Shown piece after piece: positions 33,850-48,710 of a stretch of DNA of 64,000 bases (its first letter is position 1; the number at the start of each line of letters is the position of its first letter). The stretch is from Candidatus Binatia bacterium. GTDB lineage: Bacteria; Desulfobacterota; Binatia; Bin18. The notes below the pieces were generated by a model that saw only the letters and a list, made by a program, of their open reading frames with translations, searched no databases and had not been told where the DNA came from. Position numbers and translations under genes: made by a program. Location of the stretch: assembly GCA_022826945.1 (NCBI GenBank), contig JAJDTY010000073.1, forward strand, positions 310,001-374,000, given 5' to 3'.

Positions 33850-34019
33850 ATATCCCTCCTTGTCTTCTGTCTTGATATCGCGCTGCTGACTCTATCACGG
33901 GCCTCTTGGCACGCCTAGCAGAGATAGTGTCCTTTCGCGGAATTCTTCGATAGTATGCTCGACGTCTTCATGATTTCAGGCGCCAGCGCGCTGTCGTACC
34001 AGAGGGAGGATTGACACCT

Positions 34020-34646
34020 ATGCGGATGATTTTAGTCGGGCCACCGGGGGCGGGCAAAGGGACGCAGGCCGTCCATCTCGTTGAACGGTTCAAGATTTCT
34101 CATATCTCAACCGGTGATATGCTCCGCGCGGCGGTCAGTGAAGGGACCGAGTTAGGCAAACAGGCGGACGGCTATATGAAGGCCGGTGGATTGGTGCCGG
34201 ATGACCTCGTCATCGCGATGGTGATAGAACGGATTGGAAAACCTGACTGTGCAAAGGGATTTATGTTGGACGGCTTTCCACGGACCCGACCCCAGGCTGA
34301 GGCCCTGGATGTCGAACTGCAGAAGGCCGGGGTTGCCCTGGATGTCGTGCTGCAAATTGAAGTCCCGGACGATTTGATTGTCGAACGCATTACCGGGCGA
34401 CGCCTGGATCCCGATACGGGCGATATTTACCATATGAAATTCAAACCGCCGCCGGCAGATATTGCCGGCCGGGTGATGCAGCGCAAGGATGACACCGAAG
34501 AGGCCTGCCGAGCCAGGCTCGAAAAATACCACTCGGAAACGGCTCCAATTATCCCTTTTTATGCGGCCCAAGGAACGCTGAAACGGGTGGATGGTAACGC
34601 CGCCCCGGACGAAGTCAGCCGGCGTATTGAGCAAGTGCTGGGTTAG
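34020..34646 (+). CDS. adk: Adenylate kinase
   Basis: The product is 208 residues from the ATG at 34020 (a TTG three codons earlier is possible). The P-loop GPPGAGKGTQA, the AMP-binding ISTGDMLRAAV and FMLDGFPRTRPQAEALD, and a long LID segment (GRRLDPDTGDIYHMKFKPPP) are all present. The LID has no zinc cysteines. It equilibrates ATP, ADP and AMP. Unusually it is not near ribosomal genes. The gene ends 18 bases before a large palindrome. Confidence 0.97.
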   Translation: MRMILVGPPGAGKGTQAVHLVERFKISHISTGDMLRAAVSEGTELGKQADGYMKAGGLVPDDLVIAMVIERIGKPDCAKGFMLDGFPRTRPQAEALDVELQKAGVALDVVLQIEVPDDLIVERITGRRLDPDTGDIYHMKFKPPPADIAGRVMQRKDDTEEACRARLEKYHSETAPIIPFYAAQGTLKRVDGNAAPDEVSRRIEQVLG

Positions 34647-34722: not shown

Positions 34723-36408
34723 TTACGGCAGAGCAAATACCGCAACGGCGCTCCCCGGTGTGGTATGGGGATATTTCCCTACGATGTCCACGACCAAGCC
34801 TCCGGCGCCACTGGGAACGGCAACGTATTGTTTGTCCCCAACTTTGTATGAGATCGGTTGTCCCCGAACCGCGGACCCGGTCTGAAACTTCCATAAGACT
34901 TCGCCCGTTGCATCATCCAAGGCAAGCGCGAACCCCTTTTGGTTGCCCGTAAAGACGAGTCCGCCGGCTGTGGCGAGCGCCCCCCCCACCATCGGCCACT
35001 CGTCCTTATAGCGCCACTTCACCTCGCCGGTGGTTGGGTCTATGGCCGTGACGTGGCCGTAGGCCGTGCCGAGGTCGCCCTGCGTTTGTCCAGGCCCTCC
35101 GCCCCAGAAGGGGATACCCTTAATGAAAATGGATCTAGCCTTTTCCATTTTACCGCAACTCTCGATCGTCGGGACGAAGATGAGGTTGGCCAGCGGACTG
35201 TAGGCCGCGGCATACGAGCCGTTTTGTCCCCCTACGTTCCCAGGACAGATAAGTTCGGGATTGCCTCCCTCCATCGGCACATACTGAGGGTCAACAATCG
35301 GACGGCCATTTTCGTCCAGCCCTTCCGCCCAGTTGAGTTGCTCAACATACTGAGAGCCGTGCAGGAACTTCCCATCCCCACGATTCAGGACATACATATA
35401 TCCGTTCCGATTGGGCTGGGCTAAGGCTTTCACAGACTCCCCGCTGCGCGTGACGTCGAGCAGAAACATGCCCGTGTTGCCATCATAGTCCCAGACGTCG
35501 TGCGGGGTGAATTGGAAATACCACTTGATCTCACCGCTGTCCGGGTCAAGGGCTAACGCCGAGTTCGTATAGAGATTATCGCCCTCACGTCCGTCACCGT
35601 TCCAGTCGGGGGCTGGGTTGCCCGTCGCCCAGTACACCAAGTCAAGGTCCGCATCATACGAGCCAGTCACCCAGGCCGGACCGCCGCCCTGTTTATACGA
35701 ATCACCGGCCCAGGTCTCGACACCGGGCTCTCCTTCGTCAGGCACAGTATAACGGCGCCACTTACGCTCCCCGGTCTCAAGATCATAGGCATCGATATAC
35801 CCGCGGATACCATATTCACCGCCCGCAATACCAACAATGACGTTATCTCGAACAATCAGGGGGGCCAGGGTAAAGCTGAAGCCACCCGCATAGTCGTCAG
35901 CTTTAGTGTTCCACACAACCGCGCCGGTTTTTCTGTCGAGCGCGACAACACGCGCATCCAGGGTGGCCATAATGACCTTATCTCCAGCCAGTGCCACACC
36001 CCGATTGCCCGGTCCGCAGCAAATTCGCATATCGTCCGGCAATTCATGATCATACTTCCAGAGCGGTTTGCCCGTTGCAGCGTCTAAGGCAAACAGTTTG
36101 TTGTAGGCCGCAGTTAGATACATGACGCCATCGGCAACCACCGGCGATGCTTGCATTTGTGCCGGCACACCGGTTTGGAATATCCAGTCGGCCTGAAGTT
36201 TTTTGACGTTTCCGCGGTCAATATCCTTTAGTGGACTGAACCGCCAGCCGGCGTAATTCCCGCCGTACATCAACCAGTCATTGGCCGGCTCCTGGAGCAG
36301 GCGCTCCTGCGTCACCGGCTGAAGCGCGTCGGCGTAAAGCGCGCCGGGAGAGAGAAACATGAGAGAGACTGTTATTGCTAAAAATCTGCACGACCAGGAA
36401 CCTCGCAT
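34723..36408 (-). CDS. PQQ-dependent alcohol dehydrogenase, lanthanide type
   Basis: The product is 561 residues from the ATG at 36408 (GGAGG 9 bases upstream), with a signal peptide (FLAITVSLMFLSPGALYADA). The eight-bladed propeller motifs are clear: the vicinal cysteine pair C130-C131 (RICCGPGNRG), the Glu ligand E198 in GGEYGIRG, the Asn ligand N264 in TGNPAPDWN, and the catalytic Asp307. Asp309 lies two residues on (HDVWDYDGN), the extra Asp that marks lanthanide-dependent enzymes such as XoxF and ExaF; calcium-dependent MxaF has Ala there. There is no C-terminal cytochrome c domain (no CxxCH), so an external acceptor is needed, and the cupredoxin encoded just upstream is a candidate. As the last gene of the monooxygenase operon, it likely oxidises the alcohol that enzyme makes, in the periplasm. 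Confidence 0.93.
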   Translation of the reverse strand: MRGSWSCRFLAITVSLMFLSPGALYADALQPVTQERLLQEPANDWLMYGGNYAGWRFSPLKDIDRGNVKKLQADWIFQTGVPAQMQASPVVADGVMYLTAAYNKLFALDAATGKPLWKYDHELPDDMRICCGPGNRGVALAGDKVIMATLDARVVALDRKTGAVVWNTKADDYAGGFSFTLAPLIVRDNVIVGIAGGEYGIRGYIDAYDLETGERKWRRYTVPDEGEPGVETWAGDSYKQGGGPAWVTGSYDADLDLVYWATGNPAPDWNGDGREGDNLYTNSALALDPDSGEIKWYFQFTPHDVWDYDGNTGMFLLDVTRSGESVKALAQPNRNGYMYVLNRGDGKFLHGSQYVEQLNWAEGLDENGRPIVDPQYVPMEGGNPELICPGNVGGQNGSYAAAYSPLANLIFVPTIESCGKMEKARSIFIKGIPFWGGGPGQTQGDLGTAYGHVTAIDPTTGEVKWRYKDEWPMVGGALATAGGLVFTGNQKGFALALDDATGEVLWKFQTGSAVRGQPISYKVGDKQYVAVPSGAGGLVVDIVGKYPHTTPGSAVAVFALP

Positions 36409-36513
36409 GAGTAATGCCTCCTCAGAGTAATTGCCAATCGAAAAATGTGGTCGAACCCTACTGATTTTTATACCAGAGGTCAAGAAAGTGGACACGGCAT
36501 ACGCCCTGGACTC

Positions 36514-37242
36514 TTAGGCAAAGAGGCGCAATCTTCTCCCCGCGAAGAGCGCCCCGGCAATACCGAGCAGCACGAGCGCTCCGTGCGTCCAGCCGTTCCA
36601 GACGCGCACATACGGGTCCCGCAGACGCGGTCCGGTTATGCCGGGAATACTGGGGAGATCCCCATCTCCGGCACCAACTTTGAGCTGCGCCTTCATGCCC
36701 TTTTCCATATGCTGAGAAACGTCACAGTGCACCAGATAGGTCTTGTCTCCGGGTGGGAGAATAAAAGTGCCGGTCCGCTGTCCTTTACCCGCCACCTCAA
36801 GCGTGAACATACCCATGGGATAGATATAGCGCGGCAGGCCGTGCAGCATCCACTGGTGACGAACGGTGTCCGTATTGATGAGCGTTACCGTGAGTTTCGT
36901 ACATGGCGCAAAATTCCATTCGTTTCGATCATACGCAAACATCGTTCCCGGCTGGGCAAATTCTTTACCGGCACGAACAGTGATCTCGCGTTCACCAGAG
37001 AGGCGAGGACAGCCCCGGGGGAGTTGGTCCGTATTTTCATTCATCACCATACCCGCAGTGTCGAGTTGCATCCCATGATGCGCATGATGATGGTGAGACT
37101 CGTGCTCCTGAGTCGAGCCAACCTCGATTGATAACAAGACGGACAAGGTGCACACGATCAGTGTAGAGACCGTTCTCCGGGATTGCCCTCCCCGGAACAC
37201 CTCTGCCCCCTTCTGACTATTTTTCCTCAGAAAAAATCCCAT
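36514..37242 (-). CDS. Membrane-bound cupredoxin with His-rich N-terminus
   Basis: The product is 242 residues from the ATG at 37242 (GGAA 6 bases upstream; a TTG four codons earlier is possible). Order: signal peptide or anchor (residues 24-45), a His-rich stretch EHESHHHHAHHGM (about 46-58), a cupredoxin domain (about 78-190), and a C-terminal membrane helix (about 219-236). Candidate type 1 copper ligands are His129 (VRHQWMLHG), Cys173, His178 and Met183 (HCDVSQHMEKGM). It would be a blue copper electron carrier on the outer face of the inner membrane. It starts 14 bases after the multicopper oxidase stop and ends 105 bases before the PQQ dehydrogenase. Confidence 0.85.
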   Translation of the reverse strand: MGFFLRKNSQKGAEVFRGGQSRRTVSTLIVCTLSVLLSIEVGSTQEHESHHHHAHHGMQLDTAGMVMNENTDQLPRGCPRLSGEREITVRAGKEFAQPGTMFAYDRNEWNFAPCTKLTVTLINTDTVRHQWMLHGLPRYIYPMGMFTLEVAGKGQRTGTFILPPGDKTYLVHCDVSQHMEKGMKAQLKVGAGDGDLPSIPGITGPRLRDPYVRVWNGWTHGALVLLGIAGALFAGRRLRLFA

Positions 37243-37256
37243 CGAAGATTCCAATC

Positions 37257-38951
37257 TTACCGGTATCGAACCAGTCGTTTACTCAAAGCGAAGACCGCAC
37301 CGATAAGGAGACCGATACCTATCCCAAGTATAAGGGCATAACTCAAGGGCAGGGAACGAGCGCTGGCCTCCCCAAGCAGACCGAAGTCTTTCAGTCCGGC
37401 CCAGATGGGAAGCTTTTTTTGATAATATCCCTTAGTAAAAAACGGCGCCCAGTCCATCCCCTGCGTTTTCGGCTGACCGGATGTGTCCAAATAGTCCTGG
37501 TAGACAATAGCACTAATATTTCCACCAGGGTTGATCCCGTCAGTAGTGATAGCTTTTTCCTTGTGATCGTGGAGCAGCCAGACGCCTGGCCCATAATTAT
37601 GCAGGCCGTCATTAGTAGTATTGAGAAGAAGATCCACCCGTTGAGCCGGACTAATCCAGACCACGTCGCGAGTGATTTGCGCAGCCGGATTATGTTCGAC
37701 ACCATCATAATGCGTCAGCGTGACTTTATGCCCATGCGTATGCAGAGAAATGCCTTCTGCTCCGCCGTTCAGCACACGCAGTTTGACGTGTTCATTCGGA
37801 GCAACAACAATCAGCGACTCACGGGTCGTGTAGGGAAAGGAGCGGCCATTGAGCAAGAAATAGTCAGGGTCTTGATCTGTAATATCATAGCGGCGATTAG
37901 TCGCTTCGGCGATTAATCGCGGATCACCCGCGGTCTGAATAATATTATTCAACGCCGAGTCAATGTCCTGGTAGTGCAGATCGAACTCCCGGTCATAGGA
38001 CTCTCTGACTGCGGCAGAGGCAGCGCGCACCCGGCCAGCTCCGATATTGAGCGTTTGGAGCCAGTTATTCGGCCGGTTGTCCTCAACCACAAACATCCCC
38101 TGGAGCCCCATCAGAATGTGGATATGCGGCTGGACATGACAATGATAAAACATCGTACCCGTTTGACGTGGGGTCATTTCATAGGTGCGACTCTCCCCTG
38201 GTGAGACCGGCATTTCGCTCGCAATCGGCACTCCATCATTTCCCTCGCCAGTGACGTCAACAAAGGGATGGTCAACTCCGTGGAAGTGTATGGTGTGCGG
38301 CAGATAGTGCGTATTCTCCAGGGTTACCCGGAGCGTATCCCCTTGCTCTACACGAATCACCGGAGACGGGGCTCGCAAGGTCGGATGTGCCCACTCGCTC
38401 TCAAAATTTTCAGTCGCCATGCCGCGCGATTTTGGCGCAAATACCCACAGCCCCGGCTGGACACCCGGCGCAATGGCGTAGGCGGGAAACGGTGCAGGAT
38501 CATCCGGCGAGTGCCCATTCAGTTCTACAACTTCAAGCCGGATATGAATCTCGTCAGGATCACCATCCCCGTCTCTGTCGTTCTCTTTCACCACGGTATT
38601 GGGTGTCAGCCGGGTCTCCATAAGGGTGTGCAGACCAATATTATTCGTTCCTTTGACGAAGGCCGCAATTTCTGCCGGATTGTCCGGCTCACACACGGGT
38701 GAGGCTTCTATGGCAACATCTTCAAGAGTCTGAGATTCCCGCCAGTCTGCATGTCTATCCAGACAGAACGGCTCCACACTGACAGGATTTATTTGACGGC
38801 TGGGAGGCGGCTCCTGGTAGGACTCTTCACCAAGATATTGATATGCAATGTCTTGTACTGGACGGGGAAGCCAGGCACGCGGTACGAGAAAAAGCGTACC
38901 AATAGCAAGCACACCAAGCAAAAAGAAGAAGAGCAGACCGCGGAGCCACAT
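37257..38951 (-). CDS. Membrane-anchored multicopper oxidase
   Basis: The product is 564 residues with an N-terminal helix (residues 5-24) and a C-terminal helix (537-556), both membrane anchors. Copper motifs: HTIHFHG (H219, H222, H224), YHCHVQPHIHILMG (H270, C271, H272, H276, H278, M281), SLHTHGHKV (H404, H406, H408) and LLHDH (H461, H463). The Cys-bearing type 1-like motif lies in the first cupredoxin domain rather than at the C-terminus as in three-domain laccases. A calcium-loop-like DRDGDGDPDE lies at 125-134. It may reoxidise the neighbouring cupredoxin, or oxidise Cu(I); the reaction is not shown by sequence. It lies 58 bases after the small His-start protein gene, in the monooxygenase operon. 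Confidence 0.88.
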   Translation of the reverse strand: MWLRGLLFFFLLGVLAIGTLFLVPRAWLPRPVQDIAYQYLGEESYQEPPPSRQINPVSVEPFCLDRHADWRESQTLEDVAIEASPVCEPDNPAEIAAFVKGTNNIGLHTLMETRLTPNTVVKENDRDGDGDPDEIHIRLEVVELNGHSPDDPAPFPAYAIAPGVQPGLWVFAPKSRGMATENFESEWAHPTLRAPSPVIRVEQGDTLRVTLENTHYLPHTIHFHGVDHPFVDVTGEGNDGVPIASEMPVSPGESRTYEMTPRQTGTMFYHCHVQPHIHILMGLQGMFVVEDNRPNNWLQTLNIGAGRVRAASAAVRESYDREFDLHYQDIDSALNNIIQTAGDPRLIAEATNRRYDITDQDPDYFLLNGRSFPYTTRESLIVVAPNEHVKLRVLNGGAEGISLHTHGHKVTLTHYDGVEHNPAAQITRDVVWISPAQRVDLLLNTTNDGLHNYGPGVWLLHDHKEKAITTDGINPGGNISAIVYQDYLDTSGQPKTQGMDWAPFFTKGYYQKKLPIWAGLKDFGLLGEASARSLPLSYALILGIGIGLLIGAVFALSKRLVRYR

Positions 38952-39009
38952 CGTTCAACATGTACTGTGAACAGGGCGTTCGGGAAAGGGGGGCTGTCCG
39001 TTTCAACTG

Positions 39010-39564
39010 CTATCCCTTGAGCAGGGGCGAAGCCTTTTTCACAGGAAACGGCGGCCAACCGAGTTTGCCACCAACGACGTAATACCCCACGCCACAACCA
39101 ATAAGCAGGCCCGCGATCAAGACCAGCGTGGTATTTGAGAGTGAAGCGACGCGAATTGGAAACCGCACCGCCCCATCAACCCCATCAACTGTCATCAGGG
39201 CCGTATATTGTCCAGGCGTGTCAAAATTGACTTCGGCATTCACCACGCCGCTAGGGTATACCCGCGGCGGGATGTCAAGTAACAGTCGCGGTTCAGCAGT
39301 ATTGGTTTCCTCAATAATGCGAACCGCGGCCGATTTCTTGCGCAGTTCAGGATCAATCAGATCAAAAACGAGAATTGCACTCCCAGTCTGGGGAACGCTC
39401 CGGCAGAATTCCTCGGTGGCATACTCCTGCGGTTGGTAGGCAGAAAAATGGACCAGATAGACGCCTGCACGCTCTATGCAGGGGTCCAGGTCCATAGCCA
39501 CCCCCCCATGTCCCCAAGCTCCTATTGGGACGAGGAGCATGGGAACAAGGAGGAACAGTTTCAC
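39010..39564 (-). CDS. Small secreted membrane protein with predicted N-terminal His (copy 2 of a pair)
   Basis: The product is 184 residues from GTG 39564. The signal peptide ends ...PIGAWG, with cleavage predicted before His19, so the mature protein would begin HGGVAMDLDPC. Cys29, His39 and Cys54 follow with the spacing C-x9-H-x14-C, then a beta-rich domain and a C-terminal membrane helix near residues 144-165 (VLIAGLLIGCGVGYYVV). The homologue at 42994-43566, at the other end of pmoCAB, has the same spacing. An N-terminal His plus an internal His is the arrangement of copper 'histidine brace' proteins, so copper delivery to the monooxygenase is my inference. I do not recognise a named family; it lacks the Met/Cys-rich motif of PmoD. 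Confidence 0.8.
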   Translation of the reverse strand: MKLFLLVPMLLVPIGAWGHGGVAMDLDPCIERAGVYLVHFSAYQPQEYATEEFCRSVPQTGSAILVFDLIDPELRKKSAAVRIIEETNTAEPRLLLDIPPRVYPSGVVNAEVNFDTPGQYTALMTVDGVDGAVRFPIRVASLSNTTLVLIAGLLIGCGVGYYVVGGKLGWPPFPVKKASPLLKG

Positions 39565-39583
39565 AGCGCTGTCCAGTTGCGCT

Positions 39584-39613
39584 CCAGAGCGAGCCGCATG
39601 CTTCCCGCTCTGG
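39584..39613 (-). repeat. Hairpin just after pmoB
   Basis: CCAGAGCG (39584-39591) and CGCTCTGG (39606-39613) form a perfect 8-bp stem with a 14-base loop. It begins 3 bases after the pmoB stop in the direction of transcription and 20 bases before the next start. It may stabilise the upstream pmoCAB mRNA or partly attenuate transcription into the oxidase and dehydrogenase genes. Confidence 0.5.
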
Positions 39614-39616
39614 CCC

Positions 39617-40873
39617 TTATGGCAGATAGGTTGAACGAAACTGAGTTGGAACTACATTTGAACGGACCGTCACCAACTCATGACCATCGTTCCCATTCTC
39701 AAAGCGTAAGACTGCACCAATAAACTGCTGCGGCGCTTGCGTCGGGATGAGGCGTTCCGTCCCGAAAATCTGGCTTGAAACGGTCAGGGTCAGCTCTTTT
39801 GTTTCATCCGGAGCAATCGGTCCATCCGGCTGTACTTCGAGGCGACCAACAAAATCACGCGGACCGGCCTTGGCTTGCTCGGCTTCCGGTCCGTTCACAA
39901 AGGTCGCCATTGCTATAGTCAGTTGCTTGAGTTCGATGTCACTCTCGATAACATTCGTCACCTGGACCTTCATCTCAAGCGTTTCACTCGCTTCGTCATA
40001 TGTCGCCCCGCTGGCCTGAGCCTCGGCCATCTTCTCACCGGAAGAAATGAATTCCGGTGTAAACCAGTCCGTTTGCTGCGGCCACCGAACCGGCGCATTT
40101 GACGTGGCATATGTCCAACCGACAACCAGCATTACCAGGGTCACGCCCACGATGACATTCATCCACATATGGTCACGGGGCGTGATGAGACCGATATCGG
40201 GAGCATCGTCGTTCACCGGAAGCTGGACGGTGACGGCAAGATTAGTCACCGTTCTTTTATTCGTCGTCCAATACAGTATCCAGGCGACCCCCAGGACAAA
40301 CCCGGCAAACGACCACCACCAGACAAATGCGCCGCCATACGTGCTGAGTTCAATCGTCTCACCGGACAGCAGGGTGAGCGGGAAGGAGAACGGCTCCGCG
40401 CTGGGTTTGACGGTCACCCATTCGCCAGGTCCAATCAGGGTCCCAGTCCCGTATACGGCGATCCCAGGATGTACATGCCAGTCCCCAGGCTCTTTGCCAA
40501 CAAGCTCCATTTCAAACTCGTAAATTCCTCCCTTTTGGGCAAAGAACGATCCGATCGCAGCCGTTCCGTTGACAAAACGCTCTTTGAGCACAAAGACCGG
40601 CCCGGGGACGACCGGCATAATAGAAGCGATTTCCGGCGTTTCTAGCGTATGTGGCCAGGTCTCGAGAATCTTGACCGACCCCGTAACCTTGACCGGCTCT
40701 CCAACCTCAATTTCAGTCGGCGACACACTGACGTTGAAGAAAGCCGTGGTCATGTTTTTCAAGAACGGCTCGTCGGCAGCCTCACCGTGGGCAAAAGCGT
40801 TTGGCGTATTGGCAACGATAGCGGCCAGTACGAATAACACGCCAACACTGCCAAGCACGAATCGCTTACCCAT
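39617..40873 (-). CDS. pmoB: Copper membrane monooxygenase subunit B (PmoB/AmoB family)
   Basis: The product is 418 residues, close to methanotroph PmoB. The signal peptide ends NAFA and the mature N-terminus is His29 (HGEAADE), matching His33 of Methylococcus PmoB. The other two CuB ligands are H133 and H135 in GDWHVHPGIAVYGTG, matching His137/139. Order: N-terminal cupredoxin, two membrane helices (about 190-207 and 241-258), C-terminal cupredoxin. With PmoA and PmoC it forms the membrane enzyme that hydroxylates methane, short alkanes or ammonia; the substrate is not decided. Its start overlaps the preceding small gene by 8 bases, with AGGAGGG 8 bases upstream. Confidence 0.95.
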   Translation of the reverse strand: MGKRFVLGSVGVLFVLAAIVANTPNAFAHGEAADEPFLKNMTTAFFNVSVSPTEIEVGEPVKVTGSVKILETWPHTLETPEIASIMPVVPGPVFVLKERFVNGTAAIGSFFAQKGGIYEFEMELVGKEPGDWHVHPGIAVYGTGTLIGPGEWVTVKPSAEPFSFPLTLLSGETIELSTYGGAFVWWWSFAGFVLGVAWILYWTTNKRTVTNLAVTVQLPVNDDAPDIGLITPRDHMWMNVIVGVTLVMLVVGWTYATSNAPVRWPQQTDWFTPEFISSGEKMAEAQASGATYDEASETLEMKVQVTNVIESDIELKQLTIAMATFVNGPEAEQAKAGPRDFVGRLEVQPDGPIAPDETKELTLTVSSQIFGTERLIPTQAPQQFIGAVLRFENGNDGHELVTVRSNVVPTQFRSTYLP

Positions 40874-41207
40874 CGGCCACCCTCCTGGTTTCAGGCTGCT
40901 CGTCTGGGAGTTGGGGCTTGGTTTCTATGACACGCAATCGGGGCTTGCGCTTAATGCGAATGACCGGACCCGTTTCCGGCAACCCGCGTCCGTCCGTCTC
41001 TGTACTCTTCGATGCTGGCCACAAAACCACCAGCCAATAACACACAAAGGCTAAGATGCTTGCGGTAATGACGGGCGGGGCTATTTCAGAGATATTCATA
41101 CCGTGCGCATACACGGGGGAAGGAAACAGAGACAGGCCGGCAAGAAGAGCCATGAGCACAGAGCAGACTCTTCCGTATCGGGCGGGCTGCTGAGGTTCGA
41201 AAGACAT
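40866..41207 (-). CDS. Small secreted one-helix protein between pmoA and pmoB, predicted N-terminal His
   Basis: The product is 113 residues from the ATG at 41207 (GAGGTG about 5 bases upstream; an ATG four codons earlier is possible). The signal peptide ends PVYA, so the mature protein would begin HGMNISEIAPP with His35, the same start pattern as PmoB (HGE). One membrane helix (about residues 43-63) and a basic, Pro-rich 50-residue tail follow. Known pmoCAB, amoCAB and hmoCAB operons normally have nothing between A and B. It starts 19 bases after pmoA and overlaps pmoB by 8 bases, so it is likely made in step with the enzyme. It may be an extra subunit or a copper chaperone; no family recognised. 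Confidence 0.8.
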   Translation of the reverse strand: MSFEPQQPARYGRVCSVLMALLAGLSLFPSPVYAHGMNISEIAPPVITASILAFVCYWLVVLWPASKSTETDGRGLPETGPVIRIKRKPRLRVIETKPQLPDEQPETRRVADG

Positions 41208-41226
41208 ACCGCACCTCATATTTGTC

Positions 41227-42030
41227 TCACACCGTTTTCAGATAGCGCCGAATCGGCCACACGGCCAGATACCGGCCAATAAACTGACCGATCCAGTAGC
41301 CAACAAAAGCCGCCGTTCCGGCAAAGGCCAGCGAAACGTATTGCGTCTCACCCAGGAAACTCCGCAACGCGCCGCGTTCGATCAGCCGGAGGTATTCCGG
41401 GGTTTGAGAGCGGATATAGGCAATGCCCTGAACATCAGCAACCGTCACCACATGATCCATAAAATAGGCCGGTTGGAGAAAGGCAGCTAAGGGGACGTAA
41501 TTATAGGCCCACACCGCGATCGCCCACACGTGGGCACCGATCAGCGAAGTAAGGATAAAACTCTTGGTTTTCATTAAGGTCCAGTCCATCAATATCCCGG
41601 CGCAAACGACGGAGGCAGGCCACACGAAGTTCATAGGGTAGGTCGCTGCGAGGTCCCACTGGAAATACCGCCCAACCCAGGCCGCAAAAAACAAGCAACA
41701 CGCGGTGTAGGTCGCACCAGTCGGAAAGCGCCAAGCCGTCCACTGGATGTATTGCAGCGTCGAGGGAATAATGATCGTGGCAAAGGCCGTGACCACCGGC
41801 CACCACTGCGGGTCTTTCCAATCTGTCCAGAAATCCCAGTCACCGGCAAATAACTGCTTCGTGATATCAGCGGCACCTGCTACCACGAAAACTGCCGTGG
41901 TCCAAAAGACAAGATCCCACTTCCAATCAACCCACTTATATTTCTTGTTGAGCAGTTCTTTGAGTTCGAGCCGCCGTTGCCGTTCCGCTGCATCTGCGAT
42001 GTCGGTTACGGTTGTAGTTTCCGTCGCCAT
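41227..42030 (-). CDS. pmoA: Copper membrane monooxygenase subunit A (PmoA/AmoA family)
   Basis: The product is 267 residues from the ATG at 42030 (AGGAAG 7 bases upstream). Seven or so membrane helices are predicted. The family signature GDWDFWTDWKD is at residues 63-73, and ADVQGIAYIRSQTPEYLRLIERGALRSF matches the conserved C-terminal region of PmoA. Two features differ from classical PmoA: the His pair just before GDWDFW in Methylococcus is replaced (AADITKQLFA), and the GKDVAP segment after 'RSF' is replaced by LGETQYVS. This points to a divergent monooxygenase clade rather than a proteobacterial methanotroph or nitrifier. It forms the membrane core with PmoC. Confidence 0.95.
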   Translation of the reverse strand: MATETTTVTDIADAAERQRRLELKELLNKKYKWVDWKWDLVFWTTAVFVVAGAADITKQLFAGDWDFWTDWKDPQWWPVVTAFATIIIPSTLQYIQWTAWRFPTGATYTACCLFFAAWVGRYFQWDLAATYPMNFVWPASVVCAGILMDWTLMKTKSFILTSLIGAHVWAIAVWAYNYVPLAAFLQPAYFMDHVVTVADVQGIAYIRSQTPEYLRLIERGALRSFLGETQYVSLAFAGTAAFVGYWIGQFIGRYLAVWPIRRYLKTV

Positions 42031-42094
42031 GCGCACTTCCTCTCTGCACGAGGATTTTCGATCCGTTTATCGACCAAGCCCCACACCGCCGTTA

Positions 42095-42943
42095 TTAGTC
42101 GGCGGCGATCGGCGACTCAAGCGAGGCTTCTGGGTTCGTATCCTCTTCGATCTTCTCTATCTCGAACATGCGCACTAGCGTCTCGCCCCATACCGCAAAC
42201 ATGCCTGCCGCAAGCCAGCCATAAATCACAAACGGCCAGTGGAATGGAACAGAGAAAATCTCCTCGGAAATCCACAGGCTGTGGCCCCATTCATTTGCGG
42301 CAACCGCCATACATTCGAGCACACAGGCACTGATCAGCAGAAAGAACGACCAAGGAAATCCTTTGTCTCTTCCGTACAGCGCAGGGATATGGAACCGCCC
42401 GTAGATATAGGTCCCGACGGCCAATATGACTGAGAGGGGGAAGAAAAAGTAGAACATCGGGATATGGGTCGGGGTGAATGCCGTGTCACGAACCATGGTT
42501 TGGTGCCATGATCCGTCCCAGTTCGGCCAGAAGCTAGCCATCAGATAGATAGCCAGACTCGTCGCGCCAATGAGGCTCCACAAAATCGCAATCCGGCGCG
42601 TCTCTTCGGCGGGTGAGCATTCTTGTCCTTCAATGGCCCGGCCATTCCGGATGAGCCAGCCCAACCACACACCGCTGAATATGCCTAAGACGATCAATTC
42701 ACCCCAGAACAGCGTCCAGTAATACATCGTGAATTCAGCGCTTGCTGAGTTCAGTCCGGCGGTGAACATAAAGGCGTAGTTCCAGTACCAGAAAAAGACA
42801 TTGGCCAACATGATCAGCCCGCACCCCCAGAAGAGAGGATGCCAGCCGACTGACCAATCAGTCGGATTGGCGGGATTGCCAGTTGTCATGGAACCATCGC
42901 CGGAACCTTTTGGTGCATTTTGTACTGCTTGCGCCTGAGCCAT
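42095..42943 (-). CDS. pmoC: Copper membrane monooxygenase subunit C (PmoC/AmoC family)
   Basis: The product is 282 residues with about six membrane helices. The metal-site motif D-x3-H-x12-H is intact: Asp143, His147 and His160 (NWDGSWHQTMVRDTAFTPTH), matching Asp156, His160 and His173 of Methylococcus PmoC (the CuC/CuD region, thought to be near the active site). N-terminal 25 residues are polar and low-complexity. GAGGAGG lies 8 bases before the ATG. The 3' end lies in a small hairpin (CCGCCG/CGGCGG, 42086-42105) spanning the stop, 56 bases before pmoA. It is the first catalytic-subunit gene, giving the usual C-A-B order. Confidence 0.95.
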   Translation of the reverse strand: MAQAQAVQNAPKGSGDGSMTTGNPANPTDWSVGWHPLFWGCGLIMLANVFFWYWNYAFMFTAGLNSASAEFTMYYWTLFWGELIVLGIFSGVWLGWLIRNGRAIEGQECSPAEETRRIAILWSLIGATSLAIYLMASFWPNWDGSWHQTMVRDTAFTPTHIPMFYFFFPLSVILAVGTYIYGRFHIPALYGRDKGFPWSFFLLISACVLECMAVAANEWGHSLWISEEIFSVPFHWPFVIYGWLAAGMFAVWGETLVRMFEIEKIEEDTNPEASLESPIAAD

Positions 42944-42958
42944 GCCTATTCCTCCTCG

Positions 42959-42980
42959 ATAGTAATAACGACGTTACTAT
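42959..42980 (-). promoter_or_regulatory. Inverted repeat next to the pmoC ribosome-binding site
   Basis: ATAGTAA (42959-42965) and TTACTAT (42974-42980) form a 7-bp AT-rich stem with an 8-base loop that itself contains the palindrome AACGACGTT core. On the transcript it ends just ahead of GAGGAGG of pmoC. It could be an operator, an mRNA processing or stability site, or a translational control hairpin. Confidence 0.4.
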
Positions 42981-42993
42981 ATACTCTCTTGCT

Positions 42994-43566
42994 TTATTTC
43001 ACCAGTTCTTCTCTACTCCGAGCAGTGAGCTTATAACGAATCACCGAGACTGCAAGAACGATAACCACCCCGAGGGTAATCAGCGCTGGTCCGACTAAGG
43101 CCTTATACCATGCCGCAACCTGAAAGGGAAATGCAAATTTGCGCGGTTCGCGTTCCTCTGCAAGTCCGAGCATCACTCGCACTTCATAGCGCAGTCCCGC
43201 TTTCACAACGACTTCAGTGTTGGCCACGCCACGTTCATATACTTGGAAAGGCAGGGACAGGATCGTACTCGACTGTCCGGATTCATCTGCAGCAACGAGT
43301 TCAACACTGAACGGACTTTCCCAGAGATCGGGCGTCACGTCCACGACCAGAAAGGCGTTCCCCACGCGCGGGATTTCTTCACAGTATTCCGTGACTGGAT
43401 CGAATTGAGTCTGATAAAAGGTAATATGCAAGAGCGAAGCACCGACCTCCCGTCGGCACGGGTCTCCAGGCCCCCTGTCTCGATGCCCCCAGGATAACGC
43501 GGGAAGCACCAGGCAAAGCGTCGCTACTACAGTGAGAAGTGAGAAGATTCGGCGAGATCGTCTCAT
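42994..43566 (-). CDS. Small secreted membrane protein with predicted N-terminal His (copy 1 of a pair)
   Basis: The product is 190 residues. The signal peptide (MRRSRRIFSLLTVVATLCLV...ALSWG) is followed by His28, so the mature protein would start HRDRGPGDPC. Cys37, His47 and Cys62 keep the C-x9-H-x14-C spacing of the homologue at 39010-39564; DPC, LLHITFYQ, EYC and RVGNAFLVVD align with DPC, LVHFSAYQ, EFC and QTGSAILVFD there. One C-terminal membrane helix (VGPALITLGVVIVLAVSVI) leaves a short basic cytosolic tail. It is the first gene of the operon, 50 bases before pmoC. A periplasmic copper-handling role is inferred from the His-first start and context. No named family recognised. Confidence 0.82.
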   Translation of the reverse strand: MRRSRRIFSLLTVVATLCLVLPALSWGHRDRGPGDPCRREVGASLLHITFYQTQFDPVTEYCEEIPRVGNAFLVVDVTPDLWESPFSVELVAADESGQSSTILSLPFQVYERGVANTEVVVKAGLRYEVRVMLGLAEEREPRKFAFPFQVAAWYKALVGPALITLGVVIVLAVSVIRYKLTARSREELVK

Positions 43567-43657: not shown

Positions 43658-44542
43658 TTAGTGCAGAGCCCTATCAATATCGATAAAAAACGAGAGGAGG
43701 GCCGTATTGAGCGCTGGCCATTGCCGATGAGTGCCAGTTCCTTCGCAGTATATGGTTTTGCTGTTTGCCCCACACCTTGAGTAAGCCACACAGCCGTTTT
43801 CATCCTTCTCAACTGAACCGGCGCGGCACTGATTACACGCAGCCAACCAAGCAGCCGTCTCGGCCCCGTAGCCGGGGAAAAGATGATCGTTCGCACTGTG
43901 CATAATCAGAGCGGGCAGAGTTTCTGGACACGAGAATGTTTCGAGGTCGGCCCGCCTGAACCCGGCTGCACTCGGCGCCACCGCAGTCGGGATGTGGCGA
44001 GTCTCGTCCAAAAGCGCGAGTGCCAGGGCAACCGTTCCACCGTCAGAATGGCCGGTCATATAGACTCGCTCTTTATCAACACACCATTTTTTGGCGATGA
44101 GTCGCGGGATCGTACCGAGTTCAGGAATGACTTCCAGTGAAAGACGGCGGGAGTCAGCATAGGCAATGATAAAGCCGGCCGTCGTCGCCGCAAAGGTCAA
44201 ATTTGTCAGGCGCTCGGAGCGAAAACGACTTGAGCCTGCCGGGGCATAGACCATGAGGAGCGGGTGAAGAATGCCTGGATTATAGTTGGCAGGCGTCCGA
44301 ACCGTATATTTAATTTCGTGTTCGGTCTGCTCATCGTTGCTCATACCACCCGGACCGCTCTGCTCACCGAGAGGACATGGTCCGGCGTTGAGATCATTGC
44401 CGTACCTGTGTCGGCCTAACTGCGGTGGTTCACCTGATAACTTCGAACACCCCCAGAGGACGAGCACAACGATACAGAGTACCCGGTACTGGAGCGTGCT
44501 CACGGATATAGGATGACAGCTGAATCTCTCCGCTTGTCCCAC
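43658..44542 (-). CDS. Poly(3-hydroxybutyrate) depolymerase-like esterase lipoprotein
   Basis: The product is an alpha/beta-hydrolase of the LpqC/PHB depolymerase type. The nucleophile motif is GHSDGG, and the C-terminal HRQWPALN region should hold the catalytic His; NDHLFPGYGAE gives a likely Asp. A lipobox-like LVLWGC follows a hydrophobic stretch, so a lipoprotein is likely. The start is uncertain: GTG 44542 has GGAG 7 bases upstream, while ATG 44590 and GTG 44503 are alternatives. Several cysteines in the C-terminal third (CNQCRAG, CVAYSRCG) suggest disulfides. It lies upstream of the monooxygenase operon on the same strand; a link in function is not shown. Confidence 0.78.
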   Translation of the reverse strand: MGQAERFSCHPISVSTLQYRVLCIVVLVLWGCSKLSGEPPQLGRHRYGNDLNAGPCPLGEQSGPGGMSNDEQTEHEIKYTVRTPANYNPGILHPLLMVYAPAGSSRFRSERLTNLTFAATTAGFIIAYADSRRLSLEVIPELGTIPRLIAKKWCVDKERVYMTGHSDGGTVALALALLDETRHIPTAVAPSAAGFRRADLETFSCPETLPALIMHSANDHLFPGYGAETAAWLAACNQCRAGSVEKDENGCVAYSRCGANSKTIYCEGTGTHRQWPALNTALLSFFIDIDRALH

Positions 44543-44629
44543 TAGTCTTCTCCTGCTTGCCGCGTCAACGCGTCTCAGTTTATACTGCATGCTCTACCTG
44601 AGGGAACAGCAATCGGTAAGGAGGGACGT

Positions 44630-45951: not shown

Positions 45952-47289
45952 CTAGCCGCCTCCCTTCCCCTCCTCAAACACTAATCTGCCCTCACGCTCC
46001 TGAGCCTCAATCAAGGTCCGCACGTCAGGTGACAAATTGATAGAGCGTGAGTCGGGGAATTTCCCCTCTTCGAGCGGGGGCCGCAGGTAGAATTCGTCCG
46101 GCGAGTTGAGACTCATCAGGCCCTTGGGCGGAGCCAGGAACCATTCGCGGCGCATGAAGCCCGAGCTGAAGAAAATTTTTTTATCTTCCTCTGTCCATTT
46201 CTGTGGAATAAAGCCATGGGTCGAGGCGGACAGGAAGTCAATGGACACGTCCCACCACAGGTCAAACTGAACCGCATAGCCGTGTTCCTGAAAAGCCGGG
46301 TTGGCAAGAGTAGCAATTCGGGTGTTTACGAAACTCAGCTGCCCCTGTTGGTCATACTCTTCCATTCTCAGGGGAAAGAACGCGTATTGGTCAACCCAGT
46401 AAATCAGCTTATGGGCATAGTAGTCACGTAGCCATTCGGACTTTGGTATGGCTTCGAGCACATAGCATTTGACCCCGCCGTCTGTGGTATAGAGCGGATA
46501 TTCTTTGCCCATGAGGGAGAGATCTTTGGCGTCAACCTCAACATACTGCCCTTTCTCGTCGGTCAGCACGGCGGTTTGGCGCGTCTTGGGGAAACGCACC
46601 GTCTGATGCAAAACATCCGTCCCGAGAATGCGCCACGAGAACTCCCAGGCATCCCGTCCGATCAAATTATCGAATGTTGCCGCGCTATTGGGTAAGCGGT
46701 CTTCCCGCCGAGGTTGGGGCTGACGACGGATCCGCCGGAGCGATGGGGAATAGGCAAACATGTCTATTTTCGTCCGGAACGTCTGATCCGTCCGATAGCC
46801 TATCCATAAAGTCTGATTCCCATACCGTTCGGGTGGAGAGACGCTTTGAGAGAGCCAGCGATAGATTTCCTGGCCGGGCTGGGCCGCGTACAGATGTTCT
46901 CCAAACCCATTCTCGGGAAAATACAAGATGGGAATAAGCGTCACGCGTTGGTCCATAAATCCCGAGTTCGTCACCGAGAACGCCATGTCGATCAGGATAC
47001 AGTCCCAGAACGGCGAGTGGGGGAACTCCATCGCCCGTAGCGCCATTTCTTCCGCCGTATAGGGCGGCTGGAACGGGAAGGACTCGGCCGGCAGATAGGG
47101 TACGCTGGCATCCCGCGGTGTGTCCGTACGGAAATCCAGCGCTCTTTTTTCTTCGGCCGTAAGCTCGGCAGCCGTTGTCCAGGTTTTCTGCGGCGGACCG
47201 TCTTGGTCTGCCGCCACAGTCCCCAGACTACCAGAACACAGCAGGCAGCAGACAAGCAGCCACAAGAGCTGGCGCGCGCGAAGAGCCAT
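45952..47289 (-). CDS. DUF1329 family envelope protein (paralogue 1)
   Basis: The product is 445 residues from the ATG at 47289, which lies 1 base after the stop of the gene upstream. It has a signal peptide (LLWLLVCCLLCSGSLGTVAA). FRTDTPRDASVPYLPAESFPFQPPYTAEEMALRAMEFPHSPFW and the RRIRRQPQPRREDRLPNSAATFDNLIGRDAWEFSWRILGTDV core are typical DUF1329. These proteins resemble the lipoprotein carrier fold (LolB-like) and are usually encoded with a DUF1302 porin, as here. A role in moving a hydrophobic substrate across the envelope is inferred. It is closely similar in motif order to the next gene. Confidence 0.88.
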   Translation of the reverse strand: MALRARQLLWLLVCCLLCSGSLGTVAADQDGPPQKTWTTAAELTAEEKRALDFRTDTPRDASVPYLPAESFPFQPPYTAEEMALRAMEFPHSPFWDCILIDMAFSVTNSGFMDQRVTLIPILYFPENGFGEHLYAAQPGQEIYRWLSQSVSPPERYGNQTLWIGYRTDQTFRTKIDMFAYSPSLRRIRRQPQPRREDRLPNSAATFDNLIGRDAWEFSWRILGTDVLHQTVRFPKTRQTAVLTDEKGQYVEVDAKDLSLMGKEYPLYTTDGGVKCYVLEAIPKSEWLRDYYAHKLIYWVDQYAFFPLRMEEYDQQGQLSFVNTRIATLANPAFQEHGYAVQFDLWWDVSIDFLSASTHGFIPQKWTEEDKKIFFSSGFMRREWFLAPPKGLMSLNSPDEFYLRPPLEEGKFPDSRSINLSPDVRTLIEAQEREGRLVFEEGKGGG

Positions 47290-47290
47290 C

Positions 47291-48649
47291 TTACTGTTGC
47301 GCTTTGACCTCAATGAGCGGAGAGGAGATGTCGAAGACCAGATATCCGGCTTCTTCTTGCAAGCGGTAGCGCTGCGCAAGCTCTGCGGAGATGGTAACGC
47401 TCCGGTCTTGCGGGAATTTTTCTGGATACAAGAGCGGGCGGAGAAAGAATTTTTCCGGAGAATAGACCAGAGATTGGGATTTGAGCGGATACTTGAGCCA
47501 ACTGCGGCGCATGAAGTCGGGCTCGAACATCGTCTCTCGGTCTTCCTGGGGCCACTCCTTCACCCAGTGGGCGTCATGAGCGCTATAGCTCATCAAGTCG
47601 AGGGCGAGGTCATAGTAGACCGTAAACAGTCCGGCATAGCCGCGTTCTTCCAGTGCCGGGTTGGCGAGATAGGCATTCCGCACCTCAATCATCCGCAGTT
47701 GATTGTCGTTATCGTACTGCTCGATACGCAGCGGATAGAAGCTGTGCTGATCGAACCAGTATATCAGCCGGCTCATACGGTAGTGCGGCAACCAGTCTTC
47801 TTTCCTAGTCGCCTCAACCACATAACAGGCCACTCCACCGTCTTCAGTATAATGCGGATAGGTATCGCCCAGCATTTTAATCTGATCCGACGGGACCTCA
47901 TTAAAACTCCCGTCGGGCGTGGCCAGGGTGACCGTCGGGCGGGTATTTGGGAAACGAATAGTCTCGTGCAGCACATCCGTGCCAAGCAGGCGCCACGAGA
48001 ACTCCCAGGCATCGCGTCCCACCACATCGTCAAAAGTCTGGACATTATTGGGGAAGCGCGCGTCCCGGCGGGGCTGAGGCTGACGGCGTACGCGGCGCAG
48101 GTTTGGGCTGTAGATGAAATTGTCGAGTTTGGTTGTTTCTTCCTTGTCCGTCCGTCTCAAGATCCACAGGTCCTGAAGACCCTGGTTCTCGGGCGGATAG
48201 GTATAGAAGAAGACCATCCGAAAATAGGCGTCCCCTGGTGCCATGCTGAGCTGGCCGGGCACCCCATACTCGTCCGGGATATAATGGCTATAGGCTAGCG
48301 TGATACCTTCATCCAGAAAGCCGGTGCTGGTAATCGCGCCGAACACATCGGCCATAGCGTGCGACCAGCGGGCGATGTGCGGGAATTCCATGGCCCGATA
48401 GCCCATCTCTTCCGCGGTATAAGGCGGCTGAAAAGGATAGGCTTCTGCCGGGAGGTAGGGAATCGTCGTATCGCGGGGGGTGTCGACCCGGAAATCAAGA
48501 CGCGATTTTTCCGCCTCGGACAGCTCCTCTATCGTTTTCCAGGCCTTCTGGTGGCCGCCGTTCTGCTCAGCCACCCCTGCGGTCGATACAGCCAAGCTGA
48601 AGAGAAAAGAGAAGGCCAAGCCCGTCAGGAAAAAAAGGCGTCTGTTCAT
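47291..48649 (-). CDS. DUF1329 family envelope protein (paralogue 2)
   Basis: The product is 452 residues with a signal peptide (MNRRLFFLTGLAFSFLFSLAVSTAGVA). It shares with its neighbour FRVDTPRDTTIPYLPAEAYPFQPPYTAEEM, RRVRRQPQPRRDARFPNNVQTFDDVVGRDAWEFSWRLLGTDV and PEKFFLRPLLYPEKFPQDRSV, so the two arose by tandem duplication. Stop and next start are 1 base apart. It follows the DUF1302 porin gene by 61 bases. A long open frame exists on the opposite strand but is only a shadow of this GC-rich coding sequence. Confidence 0.9.
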   Translation of the reverse strand: MNRRLFFLTGLAFSFLFSLAVSTAGVAEQNGGHQKAWKTIEELSEAEKSRLDFRVDTPRDTTIPYLPAEAYPFQPPYTAEEMGYRAMEFPHIARWSHAMADVFGAITSTGFLDEGITLAYSHYIPDEYGVPGQLSMAPGDAYFRMVFFYTYPPENQGLQDLWILRRTDKEETTKLDNFIYSPNLRRVRRQPQPRRDARFPNNVQTFDDVVGRDAWEFSWRLLGTDVLHETIRFPNTRPTVTLATPDGSFNEVPSDQIKMLGDTYPHYTEDGGVACYVVEATRKEDWLPHYRMSRLIYWFDQHSFYPLRIEQYDNDNQLRMIEVRNAYLANPALEERGYAGLFTVYYDLALDLMSYSAHDAHWVKEWPQEDRETMFEPDFMRRSWLKYPLKSQSLVYSPEKFFLRPLLYPEKFPQDRSVTISAELAQRYRLQEEAGYLVFDISSPLIEVKAQQ

Positions 48650-48710
48650 AAGGTGATCGTCTATTGAGAGCGCTCCGAAACGGGGATGCTCTTCCTTTCA
48701 AGCAGGTCGG

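Follow-up and report, generated by a model that had tools for sequence, protein, structure and literature searches.

A copper membrane monooxygenase (CuMMO) operon of a Candidatus Binatia bacterium carries, downstream of the genes for the monooxygenase itself, genes for a multicopper oxidase, a cupredoxin and a pyrroloquinoline quinone (PQQ)-dependent alcohol dehydrogenase. The operon lies in a stretch of 64,000 nucleotides (contig JAJDTY010000073.1 of GenBank assembly GCA_022826945.1, positions 310,001 to 374,000), referred to here as the window. Its host belongs to the Binatota and to the family (designated f1) of bin18, a bacterium reported to live in symbiosis with the sponge Aplysina aerophoba. 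We judge it evenly balanced whether the operon encodes, as its sequence suggests, a CuMMO for a short alkane or methane together with proteins dedicated to its copper redox chemistry and copper loading, to which the window's genus added the dehydrogenase, with PQQ taken up from outside. The CuMMO and the transcription of pmoA in sponges are known; in the literature, as far as its text was available to us, the attached copper module was not found.

The unit consists of nine consecutive minus-strand open reading frames (ORFs) running from 43566 down to 34723 in the order x1, pmoC, pmoA, x2, pmoB, x3, mco, cup and adh (Table 1). An initial annotation of this DNA had described a nearly gapless nine-gene unit, and every ORF was recovered at the same place. 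Successive listed ORFs are separated by 50, 58, 7, −8 (an overlap), 52, 58, 2 and 18 bp; the last of these, between cup and adh, holds for the longest ORF and becomes 105 bp if translation of adh begins, as is probable, at the inner ATG at 36408 and not at the GTG at 36495. The convergent gene adk (34011-34646) bounds the unit at the adh end. Pfam confirms PmoC, PmoA, PmoB, the multicopper oxidase and the PQQ dehydrogenase, while x1, x2 and x3 match no Pfam or NCBIfam family and cup gives a single sub-threshold match to Cu-oxidase_2. All nine genes are under purifying selection, with dN/dS values relative to genome G395 (locus L058) from 0.03 (pmoC) to 0.21 (cup). A promoter scan found 7 sites where 6.6 were expected.

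Table 1. Genes of the CuMMO unit, with a neighboring gene and an ORF of other loci (window positions unless a locus is named)
Feature	Position	Strand	Basis and remarks
x1, PmoD-family protein, 190 aa	42994..43566	-	signal-like N terminus, Cys37-x9-His47...Cys62, C-terminal hydrophobic helix; upstream of pmoC
pmoC, CuMMO subunit C	42095..42943	-	PF04896, E 1e-42
pmoA, CuMMO subunit A	41227..42036	-	PF02461, E 8e-53; tree
x2, 117 aa, the "x" of CAxB	40866..41219	-	signal-like segment, His39-Gly, one hydrophobic helix; 8-bp overlap with pmoB
pmoB, CuMMO subunit B	39617..40873	-	PF04744, E 3e-70; aligned to 3rgb
x3, second PmoD-family protein, 184 aa	39010..39564	-	PmoD profile; outside the x1 clade
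mco, multicopper oxidase, 564 aa	37257..38951	-	Pfam Cu-oxidase domains; best PDB matches 2zwn and 3g5w
cup, His-rich single-domain cupredoxin, 246 aa	36514..37254	-	ligands H133, C177, H182, M187
adh, PQQ alcohol dehydrogenase, predicted lanthanide type	34723..36408	-	TIGR03075; 590-aa ORF extends to GTG 36495
Esterase/polyhydroxyalkanoate-depolymerase-like gene	43658..44590	-	PF05448, E 6.5e-5, just above cut-off; 91 bp upstream of x1
Aspartyl-protease-like ORF	L022:6022-6471; L068:4918-6104; L069:11365-12684		by eye

The module that accompanies the CuMMO is a feature of one family. We took the genome counts within the class from 148 genomes, 16 of them in f1; named loci that we fetched are partly the same records and were not counted. 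CuMMO genes occur in 29 of the 148 genomes: 14 of these belong to f1 and the other 15 to another family, f5. A cup profile matched 15 of the 148, all within f1 (15/16) and none among the 132 others, and among 395 genomes drawn over the phylum it matched only the window's own (E up to 1e-5). Cupredoxin and CuMMO occur together in 14 of the 16 f1 genomes; G403 has neither, and in G406 a 5.9-kb contig bears mco-cup and no CuMMO was found in the genome. In 13 of the 14 f1 CuMMO loci, the mco-cup pair is located downstream of pmoB (or of x3); at the remaining locus (G405) the contig breaks off within pmoB, and mco-cup sits on another contig. In f5, the 15 loci of the window's CuMMO type read C-A-x2(-x2)-B over the length that their contigs cover (those of L071 and L089 stop short of pmoB); four of them have a fused PmoD-family gene upstream of pmoC, and none has this mco or cup.

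The extent of the unit differs between genera. The order x1-C-A-x2-B-x3-mco-cup-adh is kept in all seven genomes of g1, the genus of the window and bin18, contiguously in five (the window, G395, G397, G399 and G400) and across a contig break inside cup in G396 and G398. Beyond g1, mco-cup extends over the family, x3 follows pmoB only in g1 and a second genus, g247, and adh follows cup in g1 alone, so the nine-gene order that the initial annotation had proposed to search for holds within the genus and we rejected all nine genes as a conserved unit. Contigs that end 0.56 kb (G404), 1.3 kb (G405) or 8 bp (G406) past cup tell little about adh there. The simplest course is that mco-cup was acquired on the stem of f1, with x3 and then adh following.

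The monooxygenase core has a complete set of copper ligands. We aligned 20 PmoB and 20 PmoC sequences selected from about 40 fetched loci. His29, His133 and His135 of PmoB, and Asp143, His147 and His160 together with Asn217, His221 and His235 of PmoC, are invariant in all 20; we take these residues to form the named copper sites of the two subunits, and the ligands that the initial annotation had described as intact are indeed kept. PF02461, PF04744 and PF04896 score above their cut-offs in contiguous genes, which places the enzyme in the CuMMO superfamily. The NCBIfam equivalogs for methane and ammonia monooxygenases were all missed: PmoA scores 193 bits against a cut-off of 290 (AmoA_BACT) and 162 against 318 (PmoA/AmoA), PmoB 260 against 336 and 182 against 395, and PmoC 157 against 319 and 140 against 281.

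The closest fetched PmoA sequences outside the Binatota are those of actinobacterial plasmid enzymes, at 43 to 45% identity. CuMMOs of Binatota Bin18, in CAB or CAxB order, have been published and placed with butane-type monooxygenases of Actinobacteria and SAR324, and the same group of papers, in the text available to us, reports pmoA transcripts in sponges, which may stem from either of the two pmoA copies of these genomes (PMC8262859, PMC11264602, PMC9999580, PMC8941161). The window's CuMMO belongs to this lineage of the Bin18 family, which is already in print, and is probably a hydrocarbon-type enzyme. It is divergent, as had been claimed, and its sites are intact, but it is not new, and we rejected the idea of a new enzyme class. 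Its substrate would be a short alkane or methane; published trees, where seen, place Binatia PmoA near butane monooxygenases, whereas the papers on sponges interpret it as oxidizing methane.

A PmoA tree of 44 rows (L015 and L081 left out), whose references are actinobacterial, Methylomagnum and two PDB sequences only, without SAR324 and ammonia monooxygenases, and whose deep branches are long and weakly supported, shows the 14 f1 rows as a single clade (100/98) nested within the diversity of f5, beside G410 and G412, two genomes without mco-cup. In the PmoC tree, 13 f1 rows group together (81/89) and G405 stands apart in an open fork. Of these two trees, a kind of placement that had been suggested, that of PmoC is the less clear.

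The two proteins encoded after x3 carry complete copper sites. Like the two-domain oxidases 2zwn and 3g5w, mco has a type 1 copper site in domain 1, with a single type 1 cysteine, and trinuclear-site histidines in both domains; it differs from them in its hydrophobic segments at both ends and in an extra N-terminal region of about 150 residues. The type 1 ligands (H219, C271, H278, M281) and the trinuclear-site ligands (H222, H224, H270, H272, H404, H406, H408, H461, H463), whose roles we presume in part and otherwise take from the alignment, are invariant in all eight aligned sequences, and mco is predicted to reduce O2. The four cup ligands are invariant in 10/10, and the protein is probably anchored by a C-terminal helix, seen in a low-confidence model only. 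A plasmid search with cup gave no match. The genes, ligands and order thus bear out the original description of a multicopper oxidase, a cupredoxin and a PQQ dehydrogenase joined to a CuMMO.

Of the three small secreted proteins that had been noted, two can be given a family. A profile of x1, x3 and their relatives (alignment A1) searched against the PDB found the PmoD structure 6cpd (E 1e-20) as its sole match at E ≤ 1. The two cysteines and the histidine between them (C37, H47 and C62 in x1 numbering) are invariant in 14/14 sequences of this alignment and, with the hydrophobic C-terminal segment, place x1 and x3 in the PmoD/AmoD family. We rejected both as CuA-forming PmoD proteins: their motif is Cx9HxnC, with leucine in place of the methionine of the CuA-forming Cx7MxHxnC, and a tested protein of the Cx9HxnC subgroup is reported, in the available text, to bind copper without CuA features (PMC6189053). 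In a PmoD tree, x1 groups with the upstream PmoDs of f1 and the fused PmoDs of f5, and a 99/99 split separates this clade from x3, the post-pmoB PmoDs of another Binatota CuMMO type and Methylomagnum, among which mutual relations are unsettled. Because of this split, x1 and x3 probably represent separate PmoD lineages and not a recent duplicate pair.

The third protein, x2, is a small one-helix protein with no match in the PDB up to E 5. It has invariant residues in 16/16 sequences (A38-H39, E45, P48-P49, Y61 and W67-P68), and the histidine lies directly behind the signal-like segment in all 16, with the cleavage site placed by eye. A mature N-terminal histidine, as judged from the sequences, appears to be common to PmoB (20/20), x2 (16/16) and the PmoD-family proteins (13/14 in A1). 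Tandem x2 genes between pmoA and pmoB (L012:8986-9604 and L088:10014-10587) are probably the published CAxxB order.

Fused genes upstream of pmoC in four relatives encode a PmoD part and an SCO1/SenC part (L076:6633-7910, L084:6505-7776, L089:2066-3214 and L090:11056-12201; PF02630, E 1e-19 to 2e-17), and separate SCO1-like genes lie a few kilobases from pmo in further relatives (Pfam-tested in L010 and L012). We found no report of a PmoD-SCO1 fusion in the available text of the open-licence literature, supplements and gene-order figures being outside this scope. Most matches of the x3 profile outside f1 (E 1e-6 to 1e-30; L010-L012, L077, L081-L083, L085-L088) were rejected, the profile having absorbed the SCO1 half; L010 and L012 were Pfam-tested (SCO1/SenC), L077, L082 and L085-L088 were judged from sequence, a piece was seen in L081, and L011 and L083 were rejected without individual inspection.

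The last gene, adh, scores 593 bits against the TIGR03075 cut-off of 480, and its nearest solved structures are quinoprotein ethanol dehydrogenase (6zcv/6zcw) and then methanol dehydrogenase (4mae). With these and with the XoxF-type 6dam it shares the family, the vicinal cysteines and the extra aspartate. In the 590-aa ORF these features are C159-C160 and the motif W335-D336-Y337-D338, accompanied by E227, W275, N293 and R363; we take the extra aspartate as the lanthanide-type mark and assume the roles of the PQQ-site residues, on which basis adh is predicted to be a lanthanide-dependent dehydrogenase of XoxF/PedH type. No cytochrome or periplasmic binding protein gene adjoins it, so that it does not form an XoxFJG-type cluster; where lanthanide-type systems have MoxJ-like and cytochrome genes, a cupredoxin gene stands here, in a genus without recognizable pqqC and pqqE. 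A paralog in the same genome (G000:C25, L114; 72% identical) is followed by a MoxJ-like gene and then a Cytochrome_CBB3-domain gene, both below NCBIfam and above Pfam cut-offs, with genes for a molybdopterin/iron-sulfur protein and a five-CXXCH protein in the neighborhood. Because the paralog has MoxJ- and cytochrome-like neighbors and the operon copy has a cupredoxin, we propose the cupredoxin as the electron acceptor of adh. The original statement that no cytochrome c is involved holds within the unit, whose nine proteins all lack a CXXCH motif and a Pfam cytochrome match; cytochrome genes are present elsewhere in the genome, as at L114.

From these observations we propose the following scheme. 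PmoABC, with x2, would hydroxylate a small substrate, and the two PmoD-family proteins would handle copper on the periplasmic side, serving with x2 in copper loading or complex stability. The membrane proteins mco and cup would act as a copper redox pair serving the CuMMO, in which cup carries electrons and mco passes excess electrons, or Cu(I), to oxygen and so keeps both copper and carrier in the proper redox state. In g1, the lanthanide-type adh at the end of the unit would oxidize the alcohol where it is made, its electrons entering cup rather than cytochrome c and its PQQ coming from other cells. Support for this scheme comes from purifying selection, the conserved order and the retained ligands of both CuMMO and multicopper oxidase, from the restriction of cup to f1, where it accompanies a CuMMO in 14 of 16 genomes, and from the position of Binatia PmoA near butane monooxygenases in published phylogenies, as far as these were available. 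A tighter version, in which adh delivers electrons through membrane-bound cup directly back to the CuMMO, which would be re-reduced in the periplasm with mco as an overflow valve and without cytochrome c or quinol, strikes us as improbable; if it were true, the operon would name the physiological electron donor that is unsettled for pMMO.

Several observations weigh against the proposed scheme, and those that bear equally on a rival explanation are given with it below. For mco, cup and adh of this operon, we came across no data on activity, expression or binding. AlphaFold models built on shallow alignments were too poor to use (mean pLDDT of 52.4 for cup and 37.2 for mco). The mco-cup pair is joined less tightly in G404, G407 and G408, where 0.55, 1.2 and 1.3 kb with other ORFs separate pmoB from mco. 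The contrast between adh and its paralog is weakened by the L114 cytochrome-like protein, which has CxxxCH in place of CXXCH, and by MoxJ and MoxG scores below cut-off. The supply of PQQ is a further difficulty: pqqC and pqqE, the only pqq genes within the search, exceed their family cut-offs in none of the seven g1 genomes, two of which are single-contig assemblies, and pass in the same five of the 16 f1 genomes (G401, G402, G405, G408 and G409). PQQ dehydrogenases are nevertheless matched at least four times in every g1 genome (E up to 1e-100). The cells probably acquire PQQ from an external source, the alternative being an unrecognized route of biosynthesis. According to the available text of Murphy et al. 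(PMC8262859), PQQ biosynthesis is encoded in those Bin18 and Binatales genomes that bear XoxF, whereas neither marker was seen here in G395. Because g1 is without pqqC or pqqE above cut-offs, the complete two-step oxidation module proposed initially is doubtful, although genes for the CuMMO and the dehydrogenase do stand together.

The rival explanations overlap, and their probabilities do not sum to one. The strongest is that mco and cup could protect against copper, through CueO-like Cu(I) oxidation and a His-rich copper sink beside a copper-hungry enzyme, with no role in electron flow; we regard this as a real possibility that falls short of evenly balanced. It would account for the His-rich N-terminal segment of cup, and we know of no settled electron-carrier role for two-domain oxidases of the mco type. 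Genes for copC or multicopper oxidases are also noted near other PmoD subgroups in the text available (PMC6189053). A plain sink would have no need of the full type 1 set that cup retains in every aligned sequence, and a protein limited to one family and tied to a CuMMO there is unlike a general copper defense.

A second rival, which we find rather unlikely, limits the unit to x1 through cup: adh would be an unrelated neighbor that has a promoter of its own and entered between cup and adk in a single genus. No adh follows cup in G401, G402, G407, G408 and G409, spread over three genera, and the cupredoxin therefore did not arise for adh; a luciferase-family gene takes this place in G401 and G402, and G402 has a 78% identical dehydrogenase upstream, beyond glda. 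The probable 105-bp gap contains a weak terminator-like hairpin, in a scan that returned 19 sites, many inside genes, where 8.7 were expected. The position of adh is nevertheless held in all seven g1 genomes, with a dN/dS of 0.04 against G395, on the same strand and with no intervening gene, and alcohol oxidation fits the product of a CuMMO. Finally, ammonia oxidation, in which the CuMMO makes hydroxylamine and the oxidase and cupredoxin replace hydroxylamine dehydrogenase as proposed for the blue copper proteins of ammonia-oxidizing archaea (PMC9038741, in the text available), would be in line with the better score of PmoA to AmoA_BACT than to PmoA/AmoA, both below cut-off, but is very improbable given the published placement of Binatia PmoA, where seen, near butane monooxygenases and the addition in one genus of an alcohol dehydrogenase and not a nitrogen enzyme.

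We compared the unit with described CuMMO operons, citing the papers for the text available to us. The Binatota pmoCA(x)B operons share its enzyme lineage and CAxB core; the papers give CAB, CAxB and CAxxB orders and PmoD, and not the adjoining multicopper oxidase, cupredoxin and dehydrogenase seen here (PMC8262859, PMC11264602). The pmo operons of alphaproteobacterial methane oxidizers (pmoD, copC, copD) likewise combine a CuMMO with PmoD and copper genes, and the amo operons of betaproteobacterial ammonia oxidizers (amoE, amoD, copC, copD) likewise have two PmoD-family genes, but their copper genes are CopC, CopD and PCuAC where the window has an oxidase and a cupredoxin (PMC6189053). The PmoD motif of the window, Cx9HxnC, also sets it apart from the CuA-forming Cx7MxHxnC. 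The hydrocarbon monooxygenase loci of three actinobacterial stretches (Mycolicibacterium chubuense NBB4, Rhodococcus sp. WAY2 and Mycobacterium dioxanotrophicus plasmids) share the CAB order. They have one or more small hypothetical genes after B and an AMP-binding protein nearby, with an NDMA-dependent methanol dehydrogenase in two of three; mco and cup, present here, are absent there by annotation and by profile. None of the CuMMO loci examined outside f1 has the set of multicopper oxidase, cupredoxin and PQQ dehydrogenase, and no report of such an operon was found in the open-licence literature within the scope given above, including PMC8262859, PMC9999580, PMC6189053, PMC9038741, PMC12533140, PMC10030591, PMC8941161 and PMC11264602. 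The statement that known CuMMO operons lack this set therefore stands for the loci and texts covered.

The surroundings of the unit and some related loci deserve separate mention. The esterase-like gene upstream of x1 is syntenic at nine loci (L058-L065 and the window) and may be a tenth member of the unit. Further upstream, window positions 45952-50339 encode two DUF1329 proteins and one DUF1302 protein; the DUF1329 genes are syntenic in five of six fetched g1 loci, and in L020 (640-5064; the bin18 record) about 3 kb of other sequence interrupts the DUF1329 gene that lies beyond glda. DUF1329 and DUF1302 proteins form an outer-membrane set often met with degradation of hydrophobic substrates. 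Between pmoB and mco, G404, G407 and G408 have in common an aspartyl-protease-like ORF, recognized by eye from the motif VDTGATDSLVP.

Other CuMMO copies were also encountered. Two PmoA matches occur in all nine g1 and g247 genomes. The window's own genome encodes a second, distant CuMMO (L013, G000:C20:146000-163000; C-A-B only, 36% PmoA identity), which forms its own deep branch in the PmoA tree with copies in G397, G400, G401 and G402. L085 and L086, from different genera (G418 and G427), have identical PmoA and PmoC, the result of recent transfer or a binning error. L081 (G412:C27) contains a decayed-looking pmoA-pmoB, with pmoB in two frames and a PmoD fragment. The multicopper oxidase in its vicinity is a different one (642 aa), which we rejected as a second case of the module for its CopA-like look by eye. 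A PmoB scan of named genomes returned nine loci, eight of them titled Binatia, Binatota, Desulfurellaceae bin18 or Deltaproteobacteria; L022 (CAMBFS010000153.1), a metagenome-assembled genome titled Klebsiella pneumoniae, has a Binatota-type CuMMO-mco-cup operon, and its label is very probably wrong. A scan of viral_contigs with PmoA gave 81 stretches that fit a pattern, none of them confirmed.

Which molecule donates electrons to copper membrane monooxygenases is a matter of long-standing dispute. The operon makes this question testable, as its cupredoxin, multicopper oxidase and, in one genus, alcohol dehydrogenase are named and expressible candidates. The PmoD-SCO1 fusions of relatives tie PmoD to a known copper-insertion factor and bear on the role of PmoD. 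For g1, the missing pqqC and pqqE predict reliance on the PQQ of neighbors, for example, inside a sponge.

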